Assembly: GCF_000331735.1 (NCBI RefSeq)
Contig: NC_020126.1
Location: 1,488,001-1,552,000, forward strand
Source: Myxococcus stipitatus DSM 14675
GTDB taxonomy: Bacteria > Myxococcota > Myxococcia > Myxococcales > Myxococcaceae
Reading direction: 5' to 3'
Length of the DNA stretch: 64,000 bases
In this document: piece after piece, positions 52,929 through 61,529 of the stretch
Numbering within the stretch: the first letter of the stretch is position 1
Layout: every line of letters starts with the position of its first letter
Notes under the pieces: model-generated
Database searches by the model: none
Told to the model about the DNA's origin: nothing
The model's input: only the letters and a program-made list of their open reading frames with translations
Translations under genes and position numbers: made by a program

Positions 52929-53537
52929 TCAGTTGGAAGGCGTCACTTCGCAGCGCCCGGAGGCGCGCTGGGAGAGGTCTTCCGCGATGGAGCGCAACAG
53001 GGGACCCGTCAAGGTGGAGAGGCTGGCGTCGGTCTCCCCTCCCTCCTTGCGGGTGAGCCACGCGGCCATCCGTCCCAGACTGGCCGCCGTCACCACGTTC
53101 AGCCGCACCTCCACCTGGATGACGAAGCGGTCCGTCTTCTCGGGAGGGTCCTCCAGCGTCCACGCCACGCGGTCCAGCTTCAGGGCCTGGGCCCCCTCCG
53201 GCAGCGTCCTTCCGTCCAGTGCGTAGCCTTCACGGGTGAAGGCAATCACCTGGGTGAGTCGCGCGCTGTCCACCCGGGTGTTGAACCAGAGGGCCCGGCG
53301 CTTCCACAGCGTCAGCTCCACTTCCAGCTTCCCCGCCATGCCCAGCCGGACCAGGCGGTCCAGCTCCTCCGAGAGGAAGGCGAACACCTCCGAGCGGGCC
53401 AGCACGCGCCGCCCGGACAGCGTGGCGGTGCAGGTGACTCGAGGTGCCTCGGCCATGGCGGTGGGCGCGAACAGTCCCGCCGTGGCCACCAGGGCCGCGC
53501 CGAGAGTACGTCGGGTCCATGTCCCCATCCGTGCCAT
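52929..53537 (-). CDS. Exported protein, DUF4390-like
   Basis: This encodes 202 residues from the ATG at 53537, with a Sec signal (LGAALVATAGLFAPTAMA). The mature part has the pattern VTCTATLSGRRVLARSEVFAFLSEELDRLVRLGMAGKLEVELTLWKRR, here split in several strands, and RALWFNTRVDSARLTQV, which recalls DUF4390 periplasmic proteins. It follows the Omp85 protein gene with a gap of 5 bases, so the two are almost certainly cotranscribed and may work together in the envelope. The family match is by eye and uncertain. Confidence 0.65.
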   Translation of the reverse strand: MARMGTWTRRTLGAALVATAGLFAPTAMAEAPRVTCTATLSGRRVLARSEVFAFLSEELDRLVRLGMAGKLEVELTLWKRRALWFNTRVDSARLTQVIAFTREGYALDGRTLPEGAQALKLDRVAWTLEDPPEKTDRFVIQVEVRLNVVTAASLGRMAAWLTRKEGGETDASLSTLTGPLLRSIAEDLSQRASGRCEVTPSN

Positions 53538-53542
53538 GGGCC

Positions 53543-56002
53543 TCAGAACGTCCGAACGAAGAACAGGCGGGCCTCGGGCGTGGACGTGGCCTTCTCGTCC
53601 GTGCGCCACGCGACGTCCACGCGCACCTCGTCGCTGAAGTGGAAGGTGCCACCCACGCCCAGCCGCGCGTCCCCCCACTTCTTCTCCGCGCGCACCGTGC
53701 CCAGGTCCGCGAAGACGCCGAACACGTGCCACCGGTACTCGGCCGTCGCGAGCACCGACACGTCGCCGCGGAACTCCTTGAAGCCGAAACCGCGCAGCGC
53801 GCTCCATCCTCCCAGCGCCTCGCGCTTCTGCTCGGGCAGGTCATCGCCGCCCGCGCCGCGCAGCCGCAGTCGCAGGCCCTCGTTCCAGCCGGTGGGCAGC
53901 ACCAGCGACACGTCGCTCACCAGCTTCCAGAAGCGCTGGTCGGGGCCAGTGACGGCGGGGCCCTCGCCGACCTCCAGCGTGGCGAAGCCGTGCAGGAACG
54001 GGCCGTCATTCCAGTCCACATCCGGGTCCGTCAGGGCCGTCTCCGGCGAGCGGAAGAGCGAGCCCACCTTCGTGTTGCGCGGCGTGCTGCTGGTGTACTC
54101 CACCCGCGCGATGACGGACTGGAAGCGGCCCTCGTCCACCGGCGCGTTGGGGAAGGGCGGCGAGTCGCGGCGGAACAACGTGAGTGGCGGGGTGAGGCTC
54201 TTCATCGACGTGTAGCGGTCGCTGCGGTACTCGACGCCCGCGAGCCAGTCCTCCGCGATGCGGAAGGTGGCGAACGCCGCCACGCCCTTGCGGCGGAAGT
54301 AGTCGCGGTCCGGTCGGTTGATGAGCACCGAGTAGAGGGACGAGTCGATGTCGCTCATCCGCCAGCGGTCCAGCGTGTCGGTGAAGTCATGCGCCTGGGC
54401 ACCCAGCTCCACCAGGCCCACCGAGGGAATCTCCACCTTCGCGCCGGCAAGCAGGTTGATGCGGCGCTGGCGCTTCGTCGCGTCCGGATCATCCGCGACG
54501 TGCTGGCCCTTCAGGCGCAGGGGCAGGATGAGGGCGGCATCCAGCGTGGTGTGGATGCGGTCCTTCACATCCCAGACGCGGAAGGTGCCCGAGAGCCCCG
54601 GCGCGAGTCCCGTCACCTGCGTGTGCAGGGGGATGAAGTCCACGTCGACGTCCGGGCTTCGCGGACGCACGTGCACCACCAGGCGACGTCCGTCCAGCGT
54701 GATGCCTCGGCCGTCCTCCTCGTTGTTCCACTCGGCGAAGAGCTCCCGCCAGCTCAGCTCGAACTCGTACTTCTCATGGCGCCGGCGCTCCTTGCGCTTG
54801 GGCTCCTGCGTCTGGAAGTGGCGGGTGCCGTCCTCCGCGCGCTCCGTGACGACGCGCGCCTCGCGGCCTCGGGAGATGTCATCCGGGTCCGCCGACACGC
54901 TCGCCGCCTCGAGGAACGGCAGGCGCGACTCCAGGCGCTCCATGGCGCGGCGCGCATCACTGCGCAGGAAGACCGTCCCGGGCTTGAGGTCCATCGCGTC
55001 GCGCACGCGGGCCGCGACGGAGCCATCCACGCCGACCACGTCCACGCTCTCCAGCTGGCCTTCATCGACGACCACGATGAGCTGTCCCTCGGGAGACAGC
55101 GTTCCGGAGAGCCTCGCGAGCAGGTAGCCGCTGGTCCGCAGGCCGTTGAGCGCGCGCTGCATCGCGCCCTCCACGCCGCCTTGGATGAGGCCGGGCACGA
55201 AGCCGCCCTTGTCCATGCGGGCCAGCCACTCCTTCGGGGGGCGCTGCGGAGGGCAGGGCGTGCTGACCGTGAGCACGCCACGCGCGCCGTTCATCCGCAC
55301 GGTGGCGACGAAGTCGTCGTCGTCGTCGTCCTCGTCCTCGTCGGTGATGCGGTGGGGGAGGCGGAAGAGCTCGTCGAGGATTTCGTCGTCCTCGATGTCG
55401 CGCAGGCCCTGGATCTCCACCGAGGTCACCACGGGGTTCTCCTCGAGGTGGACCTCCATCACGACGGGGCCCTGCTCGGGGACCCGCAGGCGGGGCTCCA
55501 CGCGGGCGAAGAGTCCGGTGAGCGCGAGCCGGCGCAGCATGGCCTGGAGCTGCTGCGGCTTCTGGGGCGTCCGCGGGTCGTCCAGCGGCGTGCCGATGAA
55601 CGTGTAGACCTGGGCCTGCGTCAGCCGCTGGAGGCCATGCAGCTCGACGACCTCGGGCGTGAGGGTGCGGCCGCCCAGGTTGAGCTGGAGGGGCGTGAGG
55701 ACGGAGGTCTCGTCCACGTCATCGTTGCGGAGGTCTTCTTCGCACGCGTCCAGGTTCTCGTGCTTCTTGGAGGGCTTGTCGCCGTCGTCGGATATCAGCG
55801 TGAGCGACCAGGACTTCTCCTGGTCGGCGTCGCGCTTCTTGTCCGCGTCGCGAGCCTGGGGCGGGGCGGCTTCGGGGCTGGGGGCCGGGGGCGCGGGCTC
55901 GGCCGGGGCGGGCGGAGCCGGGTTGGGAGCAGTCGTCTGCGGCGCGGGCTGTGCGCTGGCGACGAGGGAGACGATGCCGAAGAGGAGCGCGAAGCGGTTC
56001 AT
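53543..56002 (-). CDS. Omp85/BamA-like outer-membrane protein with POTRA domains
   Basis: This encodes 819 residues from the ATG at 56002 with a signal peptide (MNRFALLFGIVSLVASA). After a Pro/Ala linker and charged region (30-90), POTRA-like segments run from about 100 to 330 (PEVVELHGLQRLTQAQVYTFIGTPLDD, VVTSVEIQGLRDIEDDEILDELF, QLESVDVVGVDGSVAARVRDAMD). An acidic insert with ten Asp/Glu in a row region (DEDEDDDDDD) lies in one POTRA near residue 225. The C-terminal barrel has the L6 motif LRGFGFKEFRGD and ends in Phe (ARLFFVRTF), the usual C-terminal signal for barrel insertion. It is likely a TamA- or BamA-type assembly or transport pore. Confidence 0.85.
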   Translation of the reverse strand: MNRFALLFGIVSLVASAQPAPQTTAPNPAPPAPAEPAPPAPSPEAAPPQARDADKKRDADQEKSWSLTLISDDGDKPSKKHENLDACEEDLRNDDVDETSVLTPLQLNLGGRTLTPEVVELHGLQRLTQAQVYTFIGTPLDDPRTPQKPQQLQAMLRRLALTGLFARVEPRLRVPEQGPVVMEVHLEENPVVTSVEIQGLRDIEDDEILDELFRLPHRITDEDEDDDDDDFVATVRMNGARGVLTVSTPCPPQRPPKEWLARMDKGGFVPGLIQGGVEGAMQRALNGLRTSGYLLARLSGTLSPEGQLIVVVDEGQLESVDVVGVDGSVAARVRDAMDLKPGTVFLRSDARRAMERLESRLPFLEAASVSADPDDISRGREARVVTERAEDGTRHFQTQEPKRKERRRHEKYEFELSWRELFAEWNNEEDGRGITLDGRRLVVHVRPRSPDVDVDFIPLHTQVTGLAPGLSGTFRVWDVKDRIHTTLDAALILPLRLKGQHVADDPDATKRQRRINLLAGAKVEIPSVGLVELGAQAHDFTDTLDRWRMSDIDSSLYSVLINRPDRDYFRRKGVAAFATFRIAEDWLAGVEYRSDRYTSMKSLTPPLTLFRRDSPPFPNAPVDEGRFQSVIARVEYTSSTPRNTKVGSLFRSPETALTDPDVDWNDGPFLHGFATLEVGEGPAVTGPDQRFWKLVSDVSLVLPTGWNEGLRLRLRGAGGDDLPEQKREALGGWSALRGFGFKEFRGDVSVLATAEYRWHVFGVFADLGTVRAEKKWGDARLGVGGTFHFSDEVRVDVAWRTDEKATSTPEARLFFVRTF

Positions 56003-56083
56003 GCGTGGGGGACAGAGCACGCAGCGTTCCAGGCGGTCCGTCGCGGCAAGTGCTTGAAAGGACGAGTGCTGGCCCGCCGTACC

Positions 56084-56132
56084 GATGTCATGGACACATC
56101 CTGATGTGAAGCCTGGATGTGATACTGACATC
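56084..56132. promoter_or_regulatory. Two copies of GATGT-N7-ACATC upstream of the Omp85 gene
   Basis: GATGT at 56084 with ACATC at 56096 and GATGT at 56116 with ACATC at 56128 form identical inverted repeats, each with a 7-base spacer, 32 bases apart, about three helical turns. A fifth half-site, GATGT at 56103, lies between. The cluster is 82-130 bases upstream of the Omp85 start and 42 bases past the RidA stop. It looks like a cooperative regulator binding site; the regulator is unknown. Confidence 0.6.
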
Positions 56133-56174: not shown

Positions 56175-56564
56175 TCACAGGGGCGCGGCGGCGACGGCTT
56201 CGATTTCGAGCAGCCAGGCCTCGTCGTAGATGCCGGTGATGATGACCGTCAGCGCGGGCTCATGGGCGCCGAGGACCTCGCGGCGGATGGCGCTGTTCGA
56301 GTCACGGTGCTCGCGGCGGCTCAGGAAGGTGGTCACCTTCACCAGGTGGCGGAGCTCCAGTCCGGACGCGGCGAGCACGGCTTCGAGGTTGGCCCAGACC
56401 TGACGGCACTGCGCGTCGAAGGTATCGGGCACGGTGCCGTCGGCGCGGGTGGGAATCTGCCCGCTGATGTGGAGGAGCCGCGCGGGCGTCACCACCTCGT
56501 ACGCGTGGACGTAACCGCCTCCGGGGGCCTGGGCTCCCGGAATCATGCGCCCGTGCGTCGTCAT
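56175..56564 (-). CDS. RidA-family imine/enamine deaminase
   Basis: This encodes 129 residues; AGGGAG lies 7 bases before the ATG at 56564. The RidA fold is seen in RLLHISGQIPTRADGTVP, DTFDAQCRQVWANLEAVLAASGLELRHLVKVTTFL and ALTVIITGIYDEAWLLEIEAVAA. RidA proteins hydrolyse reactive enamines produced by PLP enzymes. The usual catalytic Arg near the C-terminus is not obvious in this sequence: the last strand reads ITGIYDEAWLLEIEAVA, where classical RidA has a conserved Arg before the V-x-x-L block. It may belong to a related Rid subgroup. Confidence 0.85.
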   Translation of the reverse strand: MTTHGRMIPGAQAPGGGYVHAYEVVTPARLLHISGQIPTRADGTVPDTFDAQCRQVWANLEAVLAASGLELRHLVKVTTFLSRREHRDSNSAIRREVLGAHEPALTVIITGIYDEAWLLEIEAVAAAPL

Positions 56565-56683
56565 GCGTGACTCCCTGGGGTGATGGGTGGCGGGGACGCT
56601 CGCAGAGGCGTTCGAGGGAGGCAACTGCGCCAGGGCTTTGTGGCAGGCTGCCCGGCCGTTTCTTCTGGAAAAGGAGCTTCAAC

Positions 56684-57190
56684 GTGATTCGCAGTCTTCC
56701 CACCCGGTTGGCCATGGCGTGCTCGCTTCTGCTCCTGCCCCTGGCCTGTGCTCACGTGGACCCTGTGCGGGACGAGAAGGACATCCGGCAGCTCGTGGAC
56801 GCGCAGACGGAGGCGTGGAATCGCCACGACGCGGTGGCGTGGTCCAAGGACTTCTCGGCCGACGCGGACTTCATCAACATCGCCGGGACGGTGTTCGAGG
56901 GGCAGCAGCAAATCGAGACGCGCCACGCGCAGGTCTTCGAGGCGCTCTTCAAGAACAGCCACAGCAAGGTCACGGTGCGGCGGGTGTCGTTCCCGGTCGC
57001 GGACATCGCCGTGGTCGACACGATTCACGAGGTGACGGGGCACAACGGCCTGCCGCCGGGAGTGCAGGACACGGAGCCTGGGCTCTTGCGCACGCAGATG
57101 CGCTACGTGATGAAGCGCGAGAATGGAGGCTGGCGCATCGTCGCGGGGCACAACACCGACGTGAAGCCGAAGCCTCCGCCGAAGCCGTAG
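56684..57190 (+). CDS. SnoaL-like lipoprotein (SgcJ/EcaC type)
   Basis: This encodes 168 residues from a GTG behind AGGAG. It has a lipoprotein signal (ACSLLLLPLAC). The NTF2-like fold shows DIRQLVDAQTEAWNRHDAVAWSKDFSADADFINIAGTV (as several segments) and MKRENGGWRIVAGHNTDVKP, typical of the SgcJ/EcaC group. This fold often binds a small ligand; some relatives are hydrolases or epoxidases. No clear catalytic residue is assigned. It is divergent from RidA with 119 bases between. Confidence 0.85.
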   Translation: MIRSLPTRLAMACSLLLLPLACAHVDPVRDEKDIRQLVDAQTEAWNRHDAVAWSKDFSADADFINIAGTVFEGQQQIETRHAQVFEALFKNSHSKVTVRRVSFPVADIAVVDTIHEVTGHNGLPPGVQDTEPGLLRTQMRYVMKRENGGWRIVAGHNTDVKPKPPPKP

Positions 57191-57336: not shown

Positions 57337-58689
57337 TCAGGCCACCGGCATCCCGAGCGCCTTGATGCGACGGTAGAGGTTGCCCCGGTCCACTTGGAGC
57401 AGTCGTGCGGCGCCGGCGATGCTCTCGCCCTCCGCGAGGGCCGCGCGGATGAGCTCCCGCTCGAAGTCCTCGACGTGCTCGCGGTAGCTCTTGTCGCCCA
57501 GCTTGGGGCTCGTGGTCTGTGCGGGAGCGAGTGGACTGGAGACTGCCTCGGGACCCAGGGACATCGGGCCGCCCGCGCGCAGCAGGTTGAGCCGTTCGAT
57601 GACATTGCGCAGCTCCCGCACGTTGCCGGGCCACGAGTAGGCGCGCAGCGCGATGTCCGCGCCGGGAGCCAGGACGAGCGGGACTTCGGGCCCCGCGAAC
57701 TCCGCCGCGAAGGCGCGCGCCAGCGGGAGCAGGTCGTCCAGTCGCTCGCGCAGCGGAGGGATGTGCAGCGGCATTACGTTGAGGCGGAAGAAGAGGTCCT
57801 GACGGAAGCGTCCCTCTTTCACCGCACGAGCCAGCTCCTGATGCGTCGCCGCGAGGACACGCGCGTCGACCGGCACGGGAACGGAGCCGCCGAGCCGCTC
57901 CACCTCTCGCGTCTCCAGGACACGCAAGAGCTTGGCTTGGAGCTCCAGCGGCATGTCGCCAATCTCGTCGAGCAGCAACGTGCCGCCGTGGGCTTGCTCG
58001 ATGCGTCCCGCGCGTCGGCTCACCGCGCCGGAGAACGCGCCCTTCTCGTGGCCGAACAGCTCGCTCTCGAGGAGCGTGGACGGGATGGCCGCGCAGTTGA
58101 CCGCGACGAGCCGGCCCTTGCGTCCCGAGGCCAGATGCAGCGCACGGGCGACGCGCTCCTTGCCCGTGCCCGTCTCGCCGGTGATGAGCACCGCGGCGTC
58201 GCTGGGCCCCACGCGGGCGATGAGCTGCCGCAGCGTGTTCATCGACGGGCTCTCGCCCACGAGATGTCCGGGGCGGGCGAGTGCATCGAGCAGTCGCTCG
58301 CGCTCCTCTTGGAGCGAGCCCAGCGCCATCGCGTTGCGGAGCGCGGTGACGAGGCGCTCGGGGGAGGGGGGCTTTTCGACGAAGTCCGTCGCCCCGAGCT
58401 TCAGGGCCTGCGCGGCCTCGGAGGGAGAGGCTTCACCCGACAGCACCACCACGGGCACCGGAAGCGGGCGAGGCAGCCGCGCGAGGAACTCCAGTCCCGT
58501 CTCTGCTGGCATGCGCAGGTCGAGGAGCATCACGCTGGGAAGTCCCTCGGGCGCATCGAGGACGCGAGAGGCTTCGGCGGTGGAGCGGGCCTCGACGGGC
58601 GTGAAGCCCTCGTCGCTCAGCAACCCGCGCAGGGCCTTGAGGACACCAGGGTCGTCATCGACAACAAGGATTCGTGGGCCGGGCTTCAT
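57337..58689 (-). CDS. NtrC-family sigma-54-dependent response regulator (second pair)
   Basis: This encodes 450 residues. The receiver has VVDDDPGVL, Asp57 in MLLDLRMP, and Lys in FVEKPPS. The AAA+ domain has Walker A GETGTGKE and Walker [12 protein letters not shown]; the sigma-54 contact loop reads GAFSGA, not GAFTGA. The Fis-type helix-turn-helix is [27 protein letters not shown]. Its ATG overlaps the stop of a short frame built of repeated junction sequence, so translation may be coupled through that region to the kinase upstream at 59039-60253. Confidence 0.94.
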
Positions 58690-59060
58690 GAGGTCGTCAC
58701 AGGTGTCGAAGAGGGGCGAAGAGGCCGCGCCACTCGCACGAGCATACCGCCGCCAGTCGAGCGCTTCCGCGAGTGTGAGCCGTAGTGCTCGGAAAAGGGG
58801 CGTGGGCCTGTCTTCATGAGGTCGTCACAGGCGTCGAAGAGGGATGCGGCGGCAACTCCACTCGCGCGAGTGCACTGCTGCACGCGCGAGCCGTCATGCT
58901 CGACGAGGGTTCGTGGGCCTGTCTTCATGAGGTCGTCGTCACGGGCGTAGAAGAGGGATGCAGCGGCAACGCCACTCGCGCGAATGCACTGCTGCAAGCG
59001 CGAGCCGTCATGCTCGACGAGGATTCGCGAGCCCGTCTTCATGAGGTCGTCGTCACGGGC
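58684..59060 (-). repeat. Four tandem copies of a kinase/regulator gene junction
   Basis: The block CTTCATGAGGTCGTC recurs at 58684, 58812, 58923 and 59037, at steps of 128, 111 and 114 bases. On the minus strand each copy joins the last codons of the kinase ([18 protein letters not shown] and stop, or close variants) to the first codons of the regulator (MKTGPRILV, or close variants), with ATGA overlaps kept. The original overlap of the two genes seems to have been amplified, leaving three extra relic units between them. Confidence 0.85.
58686..59042 (-). CDS. 118-residue frame running through the repeated junction
   Basis: The ATG at 59042 overlaps the kinase stop (ATGA), and the TGA at 58686 overlaps the regulator start (ATGA), so the frame couples the two genes. 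The product has three repeats of a unit like [28 protein letters not shown] and no recognised fold. It may be a translated bridge that keeps ribosomes moving from kinase to regulator and not a functional protein. The copies carry few stops in this frame, hinting at selection or simply at recent origin. Confidence 0.5.
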
Positions 59061-60253
59061 GTAGAAGGGGGACGAAGCGGCAGCTCCACTCGCGCGAGCG
59101 TCCCCCCGCCGGGCGCGGGCTCGAGCCGGAGCGAACCCCCGTGCTCATGCGTGATCTTCTGCGAGATGGGCAGCCCGAGCCCGCTGCCCTCGGGCTTCGT
59201 GCTGAACAACCCTCGCGTCAGCGCCGCGCCCTCCAGCACCGAAGGGATGCCGTTCCCTCCATCCGCCACGGAGACGCGCACGCCCCCTCCCTCCACGGGC
59301 TCCGCCGAGACACGCACCGGAACCGAGCCCTCGGCGGAAGCCTCGGCCGCGTTCTTCACGAGGTTGCCGAACAATCTGCGCAGTCCATCCGGGTCCGCTT
59401 GCAGCGACACCTCGGGGCCGGGCAACAGCTCCACGGGCACTGGCGAGGTCTGTGCGTACAGCACACAAATCTCCGAGAGCAGCGGGCGCAGCGGGACGTC
59501 CTGGAACCTGGGCGCGGGCAGTCGGGCGAAGGTGGAGAAGCTCTGCGTCATGCGCATCAGCAACTCGACCTCCTCTTGCAACAGCGCCACGGACTCGCTG
59601 ACCCGCAGGGCATCCGCCGGAGACCCCGTGTCCGCGCGCTGGAGCCGCGCCAGCGAGAGCTTCATCGCGGTGAGCGGATTCTTCAGCTCATGGGCCAGCG
59701 CCCGAGCCACGTCCTGCCACGCGGCGATCTGCTCGGCGGACTTGAGCCGCTCACGCTGCGCGACCAGCTCCTGCCCCATCCGGTTGAACTGACCCAACAA
59801 GAACTCGAACTCGTCACGAGGCGGCTCAGAGACAGGCAGCCGCACGGTGAGGTCCCCTCGCGCATAGGCCCACATGCCCTCCGTGAGCACCGTGACGGGG
59901 CGCGTGAGCGTGCGGCCAAGCAGCATGGCGGCCACCGCCAACACTCCGCCCGAGACGAACACCAGCACCGCGATGAACATGGGCACCCGGCGCACCAGCG
60001 CCCTGCGCGTCAGCTCCGCCTGCGCCAGATGGAGCCGCACCTCATCCAGCGAATCTCGCGACAGCCCCCGCTTCTCCAGGTCCGAGGACACCTCGTCGAG
60101 CACCGCCTCCACGGGCGCCACCGAGACGGACAGCATCCGCTCCAGCGCGACGTGAGCCACCACCCCGAGCAGCACCAGCGGCAACAGTCCCGCCAGCAAC
60201 ATGACCGCCAGCAGCCGGTAGCGGAAGCGGGGAGGAGGGGGCGTGGTGGACAT
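59039..60253 (-). CDS. Membrane histidine kinase of the NtrY/NtrB type
   Basis: This encodes 404 residues from the ATG at 60253. Two membrane helices (about 13-37, LLAVMLLAGLLPLVLLGVVAHV, and 92-116, FIAVLVFVSGGVLAVAAMLL) enclose a short periplasmic loop. A HAMP linker (GRTLTRPVTVLTEGMWAYARGDLTVRL) leads to the HisKA box ALAHELKNPLTAMKLSLARL with His188. The ATPase domain has NLVKNAAEAS, VADGGNGIP and GSGLGLPISQKITHEHGG. It should phosphorylate the NtrC-type regulator downstream. The final 20 residues match the repeat units between the two genes. Confidence 0.93.
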   Translation of the reverse strand: MSTTPPPPRFRYRLLAVMLLAGLLPLVLLGVVAHVALERMLSVSVAPVEAVLDEVSSDLEKRGLSRDSLDEVRLHLAQAELTRRALVRRVPMFIAVLVFVSGGVLAVAAMLLGRTLTRPVTVLTEGMWAYARGDLTVRLPVSEPPRDEFEFLLGQFNRMGQELVAQRERLKSAEQIAAWQDVARALAHELKNPLTAMKLSLARLQRADTGSPADALRVSESVALLQEEVELLMRMTQSFSTFARLPAPRFQDVPLRPLLSEICVLYAQTSPVPVELLPGPEVSLQADPDGLRRLFGNLVKNAAEASAEGSVPVRVSAEPVEGGGVRVSVADGGNGIPSVLEGAALTRGLFSTKPEGSGLGLPISQKITHEHGGSLRLEPAPGGGTLARVELPLRPPSTPVTTTS

Positions 60254-60380
60254 GGTGGTGGTGGACGAAGAAGGGGCGACAGACGCACTACGCGGAAGCC
60301 GCGCCGCGCTTGCGTGGAGGTTGTACCGCCCCCGCAGCCCAACACCCAACCCCGTCGAGAGGCTGATAACTTGGGGATGG

Positions 60381-61529
60381 ATGCCTCGTCTCCTCGCGCC
60401 CTCCCAGAGTTGGTTGTTCAGCCCGAGGGTGGACCTCGCCATCTTCGCCGGCAGTGCGCTCGTGTCGGTGGCCCTGGTCCTCGGCGCACCGTGGCTGGGC
60501 GCCGTGGGGGACACCCCGCCGTGGGCCTGGTTGCTCCTCGTCGTCTGTGTCGACGTGGCCCACGTCTGGTCCACGCTGTTCCGCACCTATCTGGACCCCG
60601 TCGAGCTGAGGGAGCGTCCGGGCCTCTACCTCGGCGCGCCCCTGGCCGCATGGGCCGTGGGCGTGGTGGCGCACCAGATTTCGTCTGGGACGTTCTGGAC
60701 GCTGTTCGCGTACGTGGCCCTGTTCCACTTCGTCCGTCAGCAGTACGGCTGGGTGGCGCTGTACACACGCAAGGCCCGAGCCTCCGCCGTTGAGCGCCGC
60801 CTGGACGCCGCGGCCATCTACGCCGCCACCGTGGGCCCCGTGGTCTGGTGGCACGCGAACCTGCCGCGCGAGTTCTGGTGGTTCGTGGAGGGCGACTTCC
60901 TCCCAGGGTTGCCCGCATGGATGGGCACCGTGGCGCTGGTGCTCCACGCGGCGGTGCTCGCGGCCTGGGTCCTGTTCCAACTCGTCCGCGTGGTGCGCGG
61001 CGAGGGACTCCAGGCGGGCAAGGTGCTCCTCGTGGGCGCGACGTGGGTGGCCTGGTTCGGCGGCATCGTCCTGGCGCGCGACGACTTCACGTTCACGGTG
61101 ATGAACGTGGTGCTGCACGGCGTGCCGTACTTCGTGCTGCTCTTCCGTTACTCGCGCGGGCGCGGAGAGGAAGGCGGTTACGGCGCGGCGGGTGTCCTGC
61201 TGCGCGCGGGGCTGCCGGGCTTCCTCCTGTTCCTCGTGGCGCTCGCGTTCACCGAGGAGCTCTTGTGGGACCGCATCATCTGGCATGACCGACCCGGCAT
61301 TTTCGGGAGCCTGGATGTTCAGCTCGCACCGGACCTGCTCGCGTTGGTGGTGCCGCTGCTCGCGTTGCCGCAGGCCACGCACTACGTGCTCGATGCGTTC
61401 ATCTGGAAACCCGGCCGTCAGCCCGCGTTGCTTGCGCGACTGGGATGGGCTCCGCGCGTGACATCCGACGGTCCACCAATCGCCACCCCGAATGAATCAG
61501 CGATGGCGGTTCAAGGGAGGAGTGACTAA
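60381..61529 (+). CDS. Polytopic membrane protein of unknown function
   Basis: This encodes 382 residues from the ATG at 60381. About nine hydrophobic helices are visible (VDLAIFAGSALVSVALVLGAP, AWLLLVVCVDVAHVWSTLF, FWTLFAYVALFHFVRQQYGW, MGTVALVLHAAVLAAWVLF, LPGFLLFLVALAFTEELL, DLLALVVPLLALPQATHYVLDAF). Several His residues sit in or near helices (DVAHVWS, FHFVRQQ, NVVLHGVPYF, ATHYVLD), which could bind metal or haem. It lies just before the trehalose enzyme gene, 14 bases away, and is divergent from the kinase. Confidence 0.75.
   Translation: MPRLLAPSQSWLFSPRVDLAIFAGSALVSVALVLGAPWLGAVGDTPPWAWLLLVVCVDVAHVWSTLFRTYLDPVELRERPGLYLGAPLAAWAVGVVAHQISSGTFWTLFAYVALFHFVRQQYGWVALYTRKARASAVERRLDAAAIYAATVGPVVWWHANLPREFWWFVEGDFLPGLPAWMGTVALVLHAAVLAAWVLFQLVRVVRGEGLQAGKVLLVGATWVAWFGGIVLARDDFTFTVMNVVLHGVPYFVLLFRYSRGRGEEGGYGAAGVLLRAGLPGFLLFLVALAFTEELLWDRIIWHDRPGIFGSLDVQLAPDLLALVVPLLALPQATHYVLDAFIWKPGRQPALLARLGWAPRVTSDGPPIATPNESAMAVQGRSD

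Follow-up and report, generated by a model that had tools for sequence, protein, structure and literature searches.

Two conserved GATGT-N7-ACATC dyads upstream of an Omp85 gene as the probable enhancer of a sigma-54 two-component circuit in Myxococcus stipitatus

The window, by which we mean the whole 64-kb stretch of Myxococcus stipitatus DNA analysed here, contains genes for an Omp85-family outer-membrane protein, a DUF4390-like protein, an NtrC-type response regulator and a sensor histidine kinase (Table 1). Between the regulator and Omp85 genes lies a 49-bp block with two GATGT-N7-ACATC dyads. Read on the coding strand from 56132 down to 56002, the order is far dyad, central half-site, near dyad, a conserved block, a sigma-54-type promoter and the ATG of the Omp85 gene.

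Table 1. Positions of the genes and sequence elements at the Omp85 locus, numbered within the window.
Feature	Positions	Strand	Basis or letters
DUF4390-like protein, next gene after Omp85	52929-53537	minus	Pfam match, weak and under the curated threshold
Omp85-family outer-membrane protein, 819 aa, target gene of the proposed circuit	53543-56002	minus	POTRA matches, predicted fold
Sigma-54-type -24/-12 promoter, GG-N10-GC	56017-56031	minus	TGGAACGCTGCGTGC
Conserved block between enhancer and promoter	56045-56059	minus	TTTCAAGCACTTGCC; consensus TTyCrnGCACTTGCC
Near (proximal) GATGT-N7-ACATC dyad	56084-56100	minus	Exact match; letters GATGTCATGGACACATC, coding strand GATGTGTCCATGACATC
Central single half-site	56103-56107	minus	GATGT as numbered, ACATC on the coding strand; 2 bp from the near dyad
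Far (distal) GATGT-N7-ACATC dyad	56116-56132	minus	Exact match; letters GATGTGATACTGACATC, coding strand GATGTCAGTATCACATC
NtrC-type response regulator, proposed dyad binder	57337-58689	minus	Pfam PF00072 receiver, PF00158 sigma-54 interaction, PF02954 Fis-type HTH
Sensor histidine kinase, start codon uncertain, proposed partner of the regulator	59039-60586	minus	Pfam HAMP, HisKA, HATPase

We placed the Omp85 start at the ATG at 56002 (MNRF...), and not at the beginning of the longer open frame, which extends into the dyads, because this start is conserved in relatives and lies 13-14 nt after the -12 box. Pfam searches of the protein gave one POTRA match just above its cut-off and another just below; BamA N-terminal matches were obtained as well. 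A structure was predicted with moderate confidence (mean pLDDT 68.6, pTM 0.57) from an alignment of the window protein and 19 of the 20 orthologues; the remaining one, L070, was left out, an earlier ATG having been taken there. The best PDB matches of this model were BamA and TamA at a probability of 1.00, with TM-scores of only 0.2-0.35 of the query, and these low values in the model are perhaps due to a different placement of the domains. Like BamA and TamA, the protein appears to combine POTRA-like repeats with a strand-rich C-terminal region whose last residue is phenylalanine. It differs from them in lying far below the BamA equivalog cut-off (31.9 bits against 297.15) and in its patchy occurrence among 23 genomes: its C-terminal part found strong matches in G000, G062, G016, G001 and G103, and in the other 18 either nothing or a short weak match. 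Since it falls so far below the BamA cut-off and has no strong match in those 18 genomes, the protein is probably an accessory Omp85. In the available excerpt of PMC3222651, MXAN4728 of M. xanthus appears as an Omp85 protein. The DUF4390-like gene follows the Omp85 gene in 20 of 20 relatives' loci, all chosen by motif, and probably belongs to the same operon.

The regulator combines an AAA+ sigma-54 domain with a Fis-type HTH, as expected of a cognate activator of a sigma-54 promoter. No GAF domain match was found in it at E 0.001. It matched 71 NCBIfam models, and among the 25 of the 71 matches that were listed none reached its cut-off. In the window, RidA-like and DUF4440 genes (56175-57190) separate the regulator gene from the 49-bp block. 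Matches to the DUF4440 gene turned up in L070, L076 and L079 as well, and the RidA gene had none in the searched loci. A 114-bp tandem repeat (58801-59098; 2.6 copies, 89% matches) is situated between the kinase and regulator genes and, inspected by eye, repeats the end of one of them and the start of the other.

The original prediction described two identical inverted repeats 32 bp apart, with an extra half-site between them, in a 49-base block. Exact matching confirmed this arrangement, with the qualification that only the pentamer arms are identical; the N7 spacers differ. We then scanned the whole genome (10,350,586 bp) for exact GATGT-N7-ACATC and found it at two places, both in the 49-bp block, so that the scan proposed as a check yielded no further copies. 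The reversed control pattern occurred nowhere in the same 10,350,586 bp. For chance alone, a dinucleotide model derived from the window predicted about 3 isolated exact sites in a genome and about 3e-5 pairs with starts 27-57 bp apart. The window contains 111 GATGT or ACATC pentamers, and the block is the sole run of five within 49 bp. Matches with up to two mismatches were not enriched in the 64-kb window (9 found, 12.8 expected), indicating that the signal is the exact pair and not a scatter of weak sites. Plasmid partition iterons were rejected as an identity for the block: according to the available part of PMC3235114, the iterons of the Myxococcus plasmid pMF1 do include GATGT words, but these form short repeats, mostly direct, in another layout.

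We assessed the conservation of the pair across genomes. With 10-40 bp allowed between the dyads, 50 of the 145 genomes scanned in the order had the pair; 49 of them belong to the family, which is represented by 96 genomes. The reversed-control pair was found in 0 of 145. Ten genomes beyond the exact-pair 49 keep a slightly decayed version: nine in genus g6 have one change in the far dyad, and G001 retains the far dyad and the central half-site with two changes in the near dyad. When up to three mismatches were allowed at a spacing of 32, 26 of 27 genus genomes had the pair at one place each and at no other. In G062 the regulator gene is on contig C304 and the Omp85 gene on contig C242, which begins within about 100 bases of the expected gene start as estimated from the match position. 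The stretch fetched from C242 showed no dyad site and no ATGAACCG start, and because the contig begins so near the expected gene start and that start was not seen, the site in this genome appears to fall in an assembly gap. These results demonstrate the strong conservation in close relatives that had been named as a check on the original prediction, and they place the site directly upstream of the Omp85 gene, as predicted, across much of the family.

A scan of a species collection (84,980 species) recovered at least 26 stretches with the pair, a lower bound since fewer family members were found than in the 145-genome scan. Among these, 23 carried the regulator and/or the Omp85 locus, two came from Vibrio and one from Streptomyces. 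Named carriers include Myxococcus, Pyxidicoccus, Corallococcus, Archangium, Hyalangium and Citreicoccus, and the 23 locus-bearing stretches also include a deltaproteobacterial MAG (L066) with more distant relatives of the proteins. One record, BNCN01 (L053), is labelled 'Comamonas sp. KCTC 72670' and carries a myxobacterial kinase-regulator-Omp85 locus; its label looks wrong. The pair in Streptomyces paradoxus (L062) was set aside as unrelated: one 17-mer is repeated there in direct orientation, and none of the sixteen window proteins searched against this stretch gave a match.

To describe the arrangement column by column, 61 loci were examined, of which 59 fitted a search form consisting of the near dyad followed within 40-62 bp by TGG(A/C)A-N7-TGC. 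G001 was read separately, G062 has the assembly break, and column counts refer to 58 family rows, with G103 left out. The conservation of the near dyad and of the -24/-12 elements is partly by construction, because the search form required them, and most of the 61 loci, like all 20 relatives' loci (about 20 kb each), were themselves picked by motif. Two features are free of the construction of the form: the central half-site, and the 52-bp distance to the promoter within the allowed range of 40-62. The central half-site, which stood outside every selection criterion, is present in 58 of 58 family loci at 2-3 bp from the near dyad and is absent in G103. The far dyad was found in the 58 family loci, 9 of which differ by one letter in its arms. 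Across the 59 loci the dyads are 32 bp apart in 48, 33 bp in 7 and 34 bp in 4. The original proposal that they lie on one face of the helix thus agrees with the roughly three helical turns seen in most loci, and the 11 loci with 33 or 34 bp mean that this phasing is not strict. The dyads are also asymmetric: over the 58 loci the outer halves are mostly GATGTCA/TGACATC and the inner halves GATGTG/CACATC. Because outer and inner halves differ in this way, the two dyads are best described as two copies of GATGTCA-N4-CACATC in opposite orientation.

Next to the conserved sites, the neighbouring genes were compared. The site or pair lies upstream of the Omp85-DUF4390 genes in 20 of 20 relatives' loci, and the regulator gene is found across the site from the Omp85 gene, in the same direction, in 19 of the 20. 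The kinase gene (at least 65% identity) is present in 17 of 20, within about 0.5 kb of the regulator gene in 14. Where the regulator gene is more than 1 kb from the site (L033, L035, L037, L049 and the window) or off the contig (L050), the site stays with the Omp85 gene. Presence and absence were then followed in 22 genomes (23 for the Omp85 protein), which were hand-picked, mostly for lacking the pair, and represented by the best match per genome. A close orthologue of the regulator (78-100% identity) occurs in G000, G062, G016 and G001, and the best match in the other 18 of 22 has 43-49% identity. Regulator and Omp85 are both present in 4 of the 22 genomes and both absent in 18; G103 has both. 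The 18 genomes without them have no dyad pair either. Since presence and absence coincide in the compared genomes, these findings indicate that regulator, target and pair come and go together.

The same operator word has been described elsewhere. In the available text of Rodionov et al. 2005 (PMC1274295), the NorR2 regulators of Vibrionales have predicted tandem palindromes, two copies of GATGT-(N7)-ACATC, before the sigma-54 promoters of hcp-hcr, and NorR sites are tandem palindromes with the core GT-(N7)-AC. According to the portion available of PMC2941729, the NorR oligomer has its scaffold in the three-site norVW enhancer. Our scan reached two Vibrio genomes. Of their exact sites, 4 of 6 in one and 4 of 5 in the other are clustered at a norR-like gene, in a single stretch about 1.7 kb long; the reversed control gave 2 and 3 sites per genome. 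These are two closely related species, and the NorR and hcp names given here go by resemblance and by the accessible part of PMC1274295, not by a family search. In V. injensis, one of the four clustered sites lies inside the norR-like coding sequence, and the dyad upstream of the hcp-like gene, GATGTCAATATCACATC, followed by TGGCATAAATTCTGC, has 16 of its 17 letters as in the far dyad of M. stipitatus. A further dyad of weaker form, GGTGTCTTTTTTACATC, begins 22 bp after that one at the V. injensis hcp-like promoter (L059, 2007-2045).

We compared the DNA-reading ends of the proteins. The tail of the V. injensis activator, MDRGNLYRMGKKLG, shares the recognition helix DRGNLYR with the regulator at this locus. 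For comparison within the M. stipitatus genome, 150 of 282 candidates were scored, and the rows covering the sigma-54 domain among 143 matches gave at least 54 activator-like loci, a few of whose open frames show no HTH at the end that was read. Among the 54 listed, the regulator is closest to the V. injensis tail (score 78, next 63) and is the only one with RGNLYR near its end. Of 44 loci that matched the regulator, 42 could be read as far as the helix, and all 42, including one Vibrio protein, have DRGNLYR or DRGNLHR. With the dyads as its predicted operator, the regulator resembles NorR2, as far as the available text of PMC1274295 describes it, in having the identical operator consensus before a sigma-54 promoter, and it has the same helix as the Vibrio protein.

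These comparisons bear on whether the dyads are read by some dimeric regulator other than the nearby one, acting at the same promoter. Binding of the dyads by the nearby regulator is a prediction, and the genome holds those 54 or more related activator-like loci from which another binder could come. Against this, the sites co-occur with the nearby regulator, a pattern examined for that regulator alone; operator and recognition helix match the Vibrio case, so far as PMC1274295 was available; and nothing in the data spoke positively for any other activator. NmpR and Nla28, whose sites have been measured in M. xanthus, were rejected as dyad binders, for the available texts give them other binding words: GCGCA-N5-TGCGC for NmpR (PMC11841059) and CT(C/G)CG(C/G)AG for Nla28 (PMC9765219). 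We consider a different binder very unlikely, and the NtrC-type regulator of the locus remains our candidate.

Downstream of the dyads, a GG-N10-GC element of the kind found in sigma-54 promoters was identified. Of the 58 family loci, 56 have 52 bp between the near dyad and the -24 box and the other two have 53 bp; in the distant G103 the gap is 61 bp. The element departs from the sigma-54 consensus at two places, with A for C in the -24 box and no first T in the -12 box. TGGAACG-N5-TGC has a single match in the 64-kb window, where 0.22 were expected and 21 of 100 shuffles had at least one; because the word alone is not rarer than chance there, the weight of the promoter assignment rests on conservation. 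The promoter word followed by ATGAANCG was found in 57 of 145 genomes, and in the M. stipitatus genome at this place only. A consensus scan for sigma-70 promoters found none. The TGC of the -12 box lies 13-14 nt from the Omp85 ATG in 56 of 59 loci. Sigma-54 transcription usually starts about 12 nt downstream of the -12 box, and an almost leaderless Omp85 message is therefore predicted. With the start placed according to this spacing, near 56005, the dyad centres lie about 87 and 119 bp before it, within the 80-150 bp or so expected of an enhancer. Seven columns (T, TT, C, G, TT) are invariant in 56 loci; all but the first, which lies immediately upstream, fall in the conserved block between enhancer and promoter. 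The block bears a weak and imperfect resemblance to the IHF consensus and is possibly a bend site; the match has one mismatch in the window and is poorer in other genera.

TGGAACG contains GGAAC, a common -35 word of ECF sigma factors, so the element could instead be an ECF-type promoter, with the dyads serving as operators for a repressor or a sigma-54-independent activator. The outlying loci G001 and G103, however, lose GGAAC and keep TGG-N9-TGC, a sigma-54 activator gene lies close by, and the sites stand at a typical enhancer distance, which is far for a simple operator. An ECF promoter at this place seems to us very unlikely, and we retain the sigma-54 assignment.

It was also considered that the block acts as RNA, the dyads folding into one long hairpin at which transcripts of the regulator operon would be terminated or attenuated. 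None of 200 shuffles folded as well as the minus-strand RNA (z -3.7), and within the spacer, pairing is seen at position 6 in 91%, at position 7 in 95% and at position 12 in 84% of 58 loci. That the dyad arms can pair as RNA follows from the opposite orientation of two copies of an asymmetric site. At the four middle positions, pairing occurs in only 17-38% of the 58 loci, as expected of two inverted protein sites. A terminator search found no terminator-like site, and there was no Rfam match at the gathering score. In addition, the block stays with the Omp85 gene when far from the regulator gene, it lies upstream of the predicted transcription start, and its central half-site is invariant although it would sit in the loop. 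Taken together, these observations make a hairpin function highly improbable. Sensing of nitric oxide by the circuit in the manner of NorR, which the match of operator and helix to the NorR2 case (PMC1274295, in the part available) might suggest, is hardly credible, because the regulator, unlike NorR, carries a phospho-receiver, has a kinase as its probable partner and gave no match to the GAF NO-sensor domain, and the target is an Omp85-DUF4390 pair of genes and not an NO-detoxification gene such as norVW, hmp or hcp.

The reading that we prefer is that the 49-bp block is the enhancer of a dedicated sigma-54 two-component circuit made up of the kinase, the regulator and the Omp85-DUF4390 genes. 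It is favoured because the pair is conserved, the central half-site is invariant in the family, the promoter stands at a fixed distance, and regulator, sites and target are inherited together. Judged from these comparisons of sequence, we estimate its probability at close to nine in ten. The original prediction, which saw in the dyads regulatory sites for the Omp85 gene, is thereby supported and sharpened by their conservation, by their enhancer distance to a conserved sigma-54-type promoter and by the NtrC-type regulator gene nearby. Many regulators of the NtrC-type family have several targets. Here the lack of any other exact copy in the genome suggests a single-target regulator, and the circuit appears dedicated to one target in the exact whole-genome scan and in the search of genus genomes with up to three mismatches at spacing 32.

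In the proposed mechanism, the kinase would phosphorylate the regulator on a signal that is probably related to the envelope. Regulator dimers would then occupy both dyads on roughly the same helix face, with the extra half-site helping, and the regulator would assemble into an AAA+ ring, which through DNA looping would remodel the sigma-54 RNA polymerase. Transcription would start a few bases before the Omp85 start codon, and the promoter would drive the accessory Omp85 gene and the DUF4390-like gene behind it. More tentatively, the enhancer may be a fixed five-half-site scaffold of a single-target outer-membrane circuit, in which two asymmetric, opposed dyads and a lone invariant half-site are combined with a NorR2-type DNA reader, a phospho-receiver and a nearly leaderless Omp85 message. 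We regard this fuller version as possible but doubtful; if it is true, the geometry of the enhancer may set a particular assembly of the activator ring, beyond providing two dimer sites.

The kind of switch is well known. In the NtrC/glnA enhancer, 17-bp dyads about 32 bp apart lie upstream of a -24/-12 promoter and are read by an AAA+ response regulator. The circuit proposed here shares that dyad size, the spacing of about 32 bp, the -24/-12 promoter and the AAA+ response regulator, and differs in its operator word, its single apparent target, the outer-membrane nature of that target and the extra invariant half-site. Compared with norVW, which has three sites in the available texts (PMC1274295, PMC2941729), it has two dyads and one half-site. 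NmpR and Nla28 are likewise myxobacterial sigma-54 activators with paired sites upstream of -24/-12 promoters, but differ from the present case, in the excerpts available of PMC11841059 and PMC9765219, by several targets each as well as by their binding words. Among the open-licence literature searched, no published description of the motif or the circuit in myxobacteria was found. What seems new is the instance, its apparent single target and an operator code common with NorR2.

An anonymous repeat has thus been turned into a complete and testable circuit, with a sensor kinase, an activator, an operator, a promoter and one target. In two distant lineages whose activators have different sensor domains, the operator GATGT-N7-ACATC is tied to the helix DRGNLYR, and this link helps to predict the targets of other activators in the class. 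For the myxobacteria themselves, dedicated two-component control of an accessory Omp85 protein would point to an envelope-sensing pathway.
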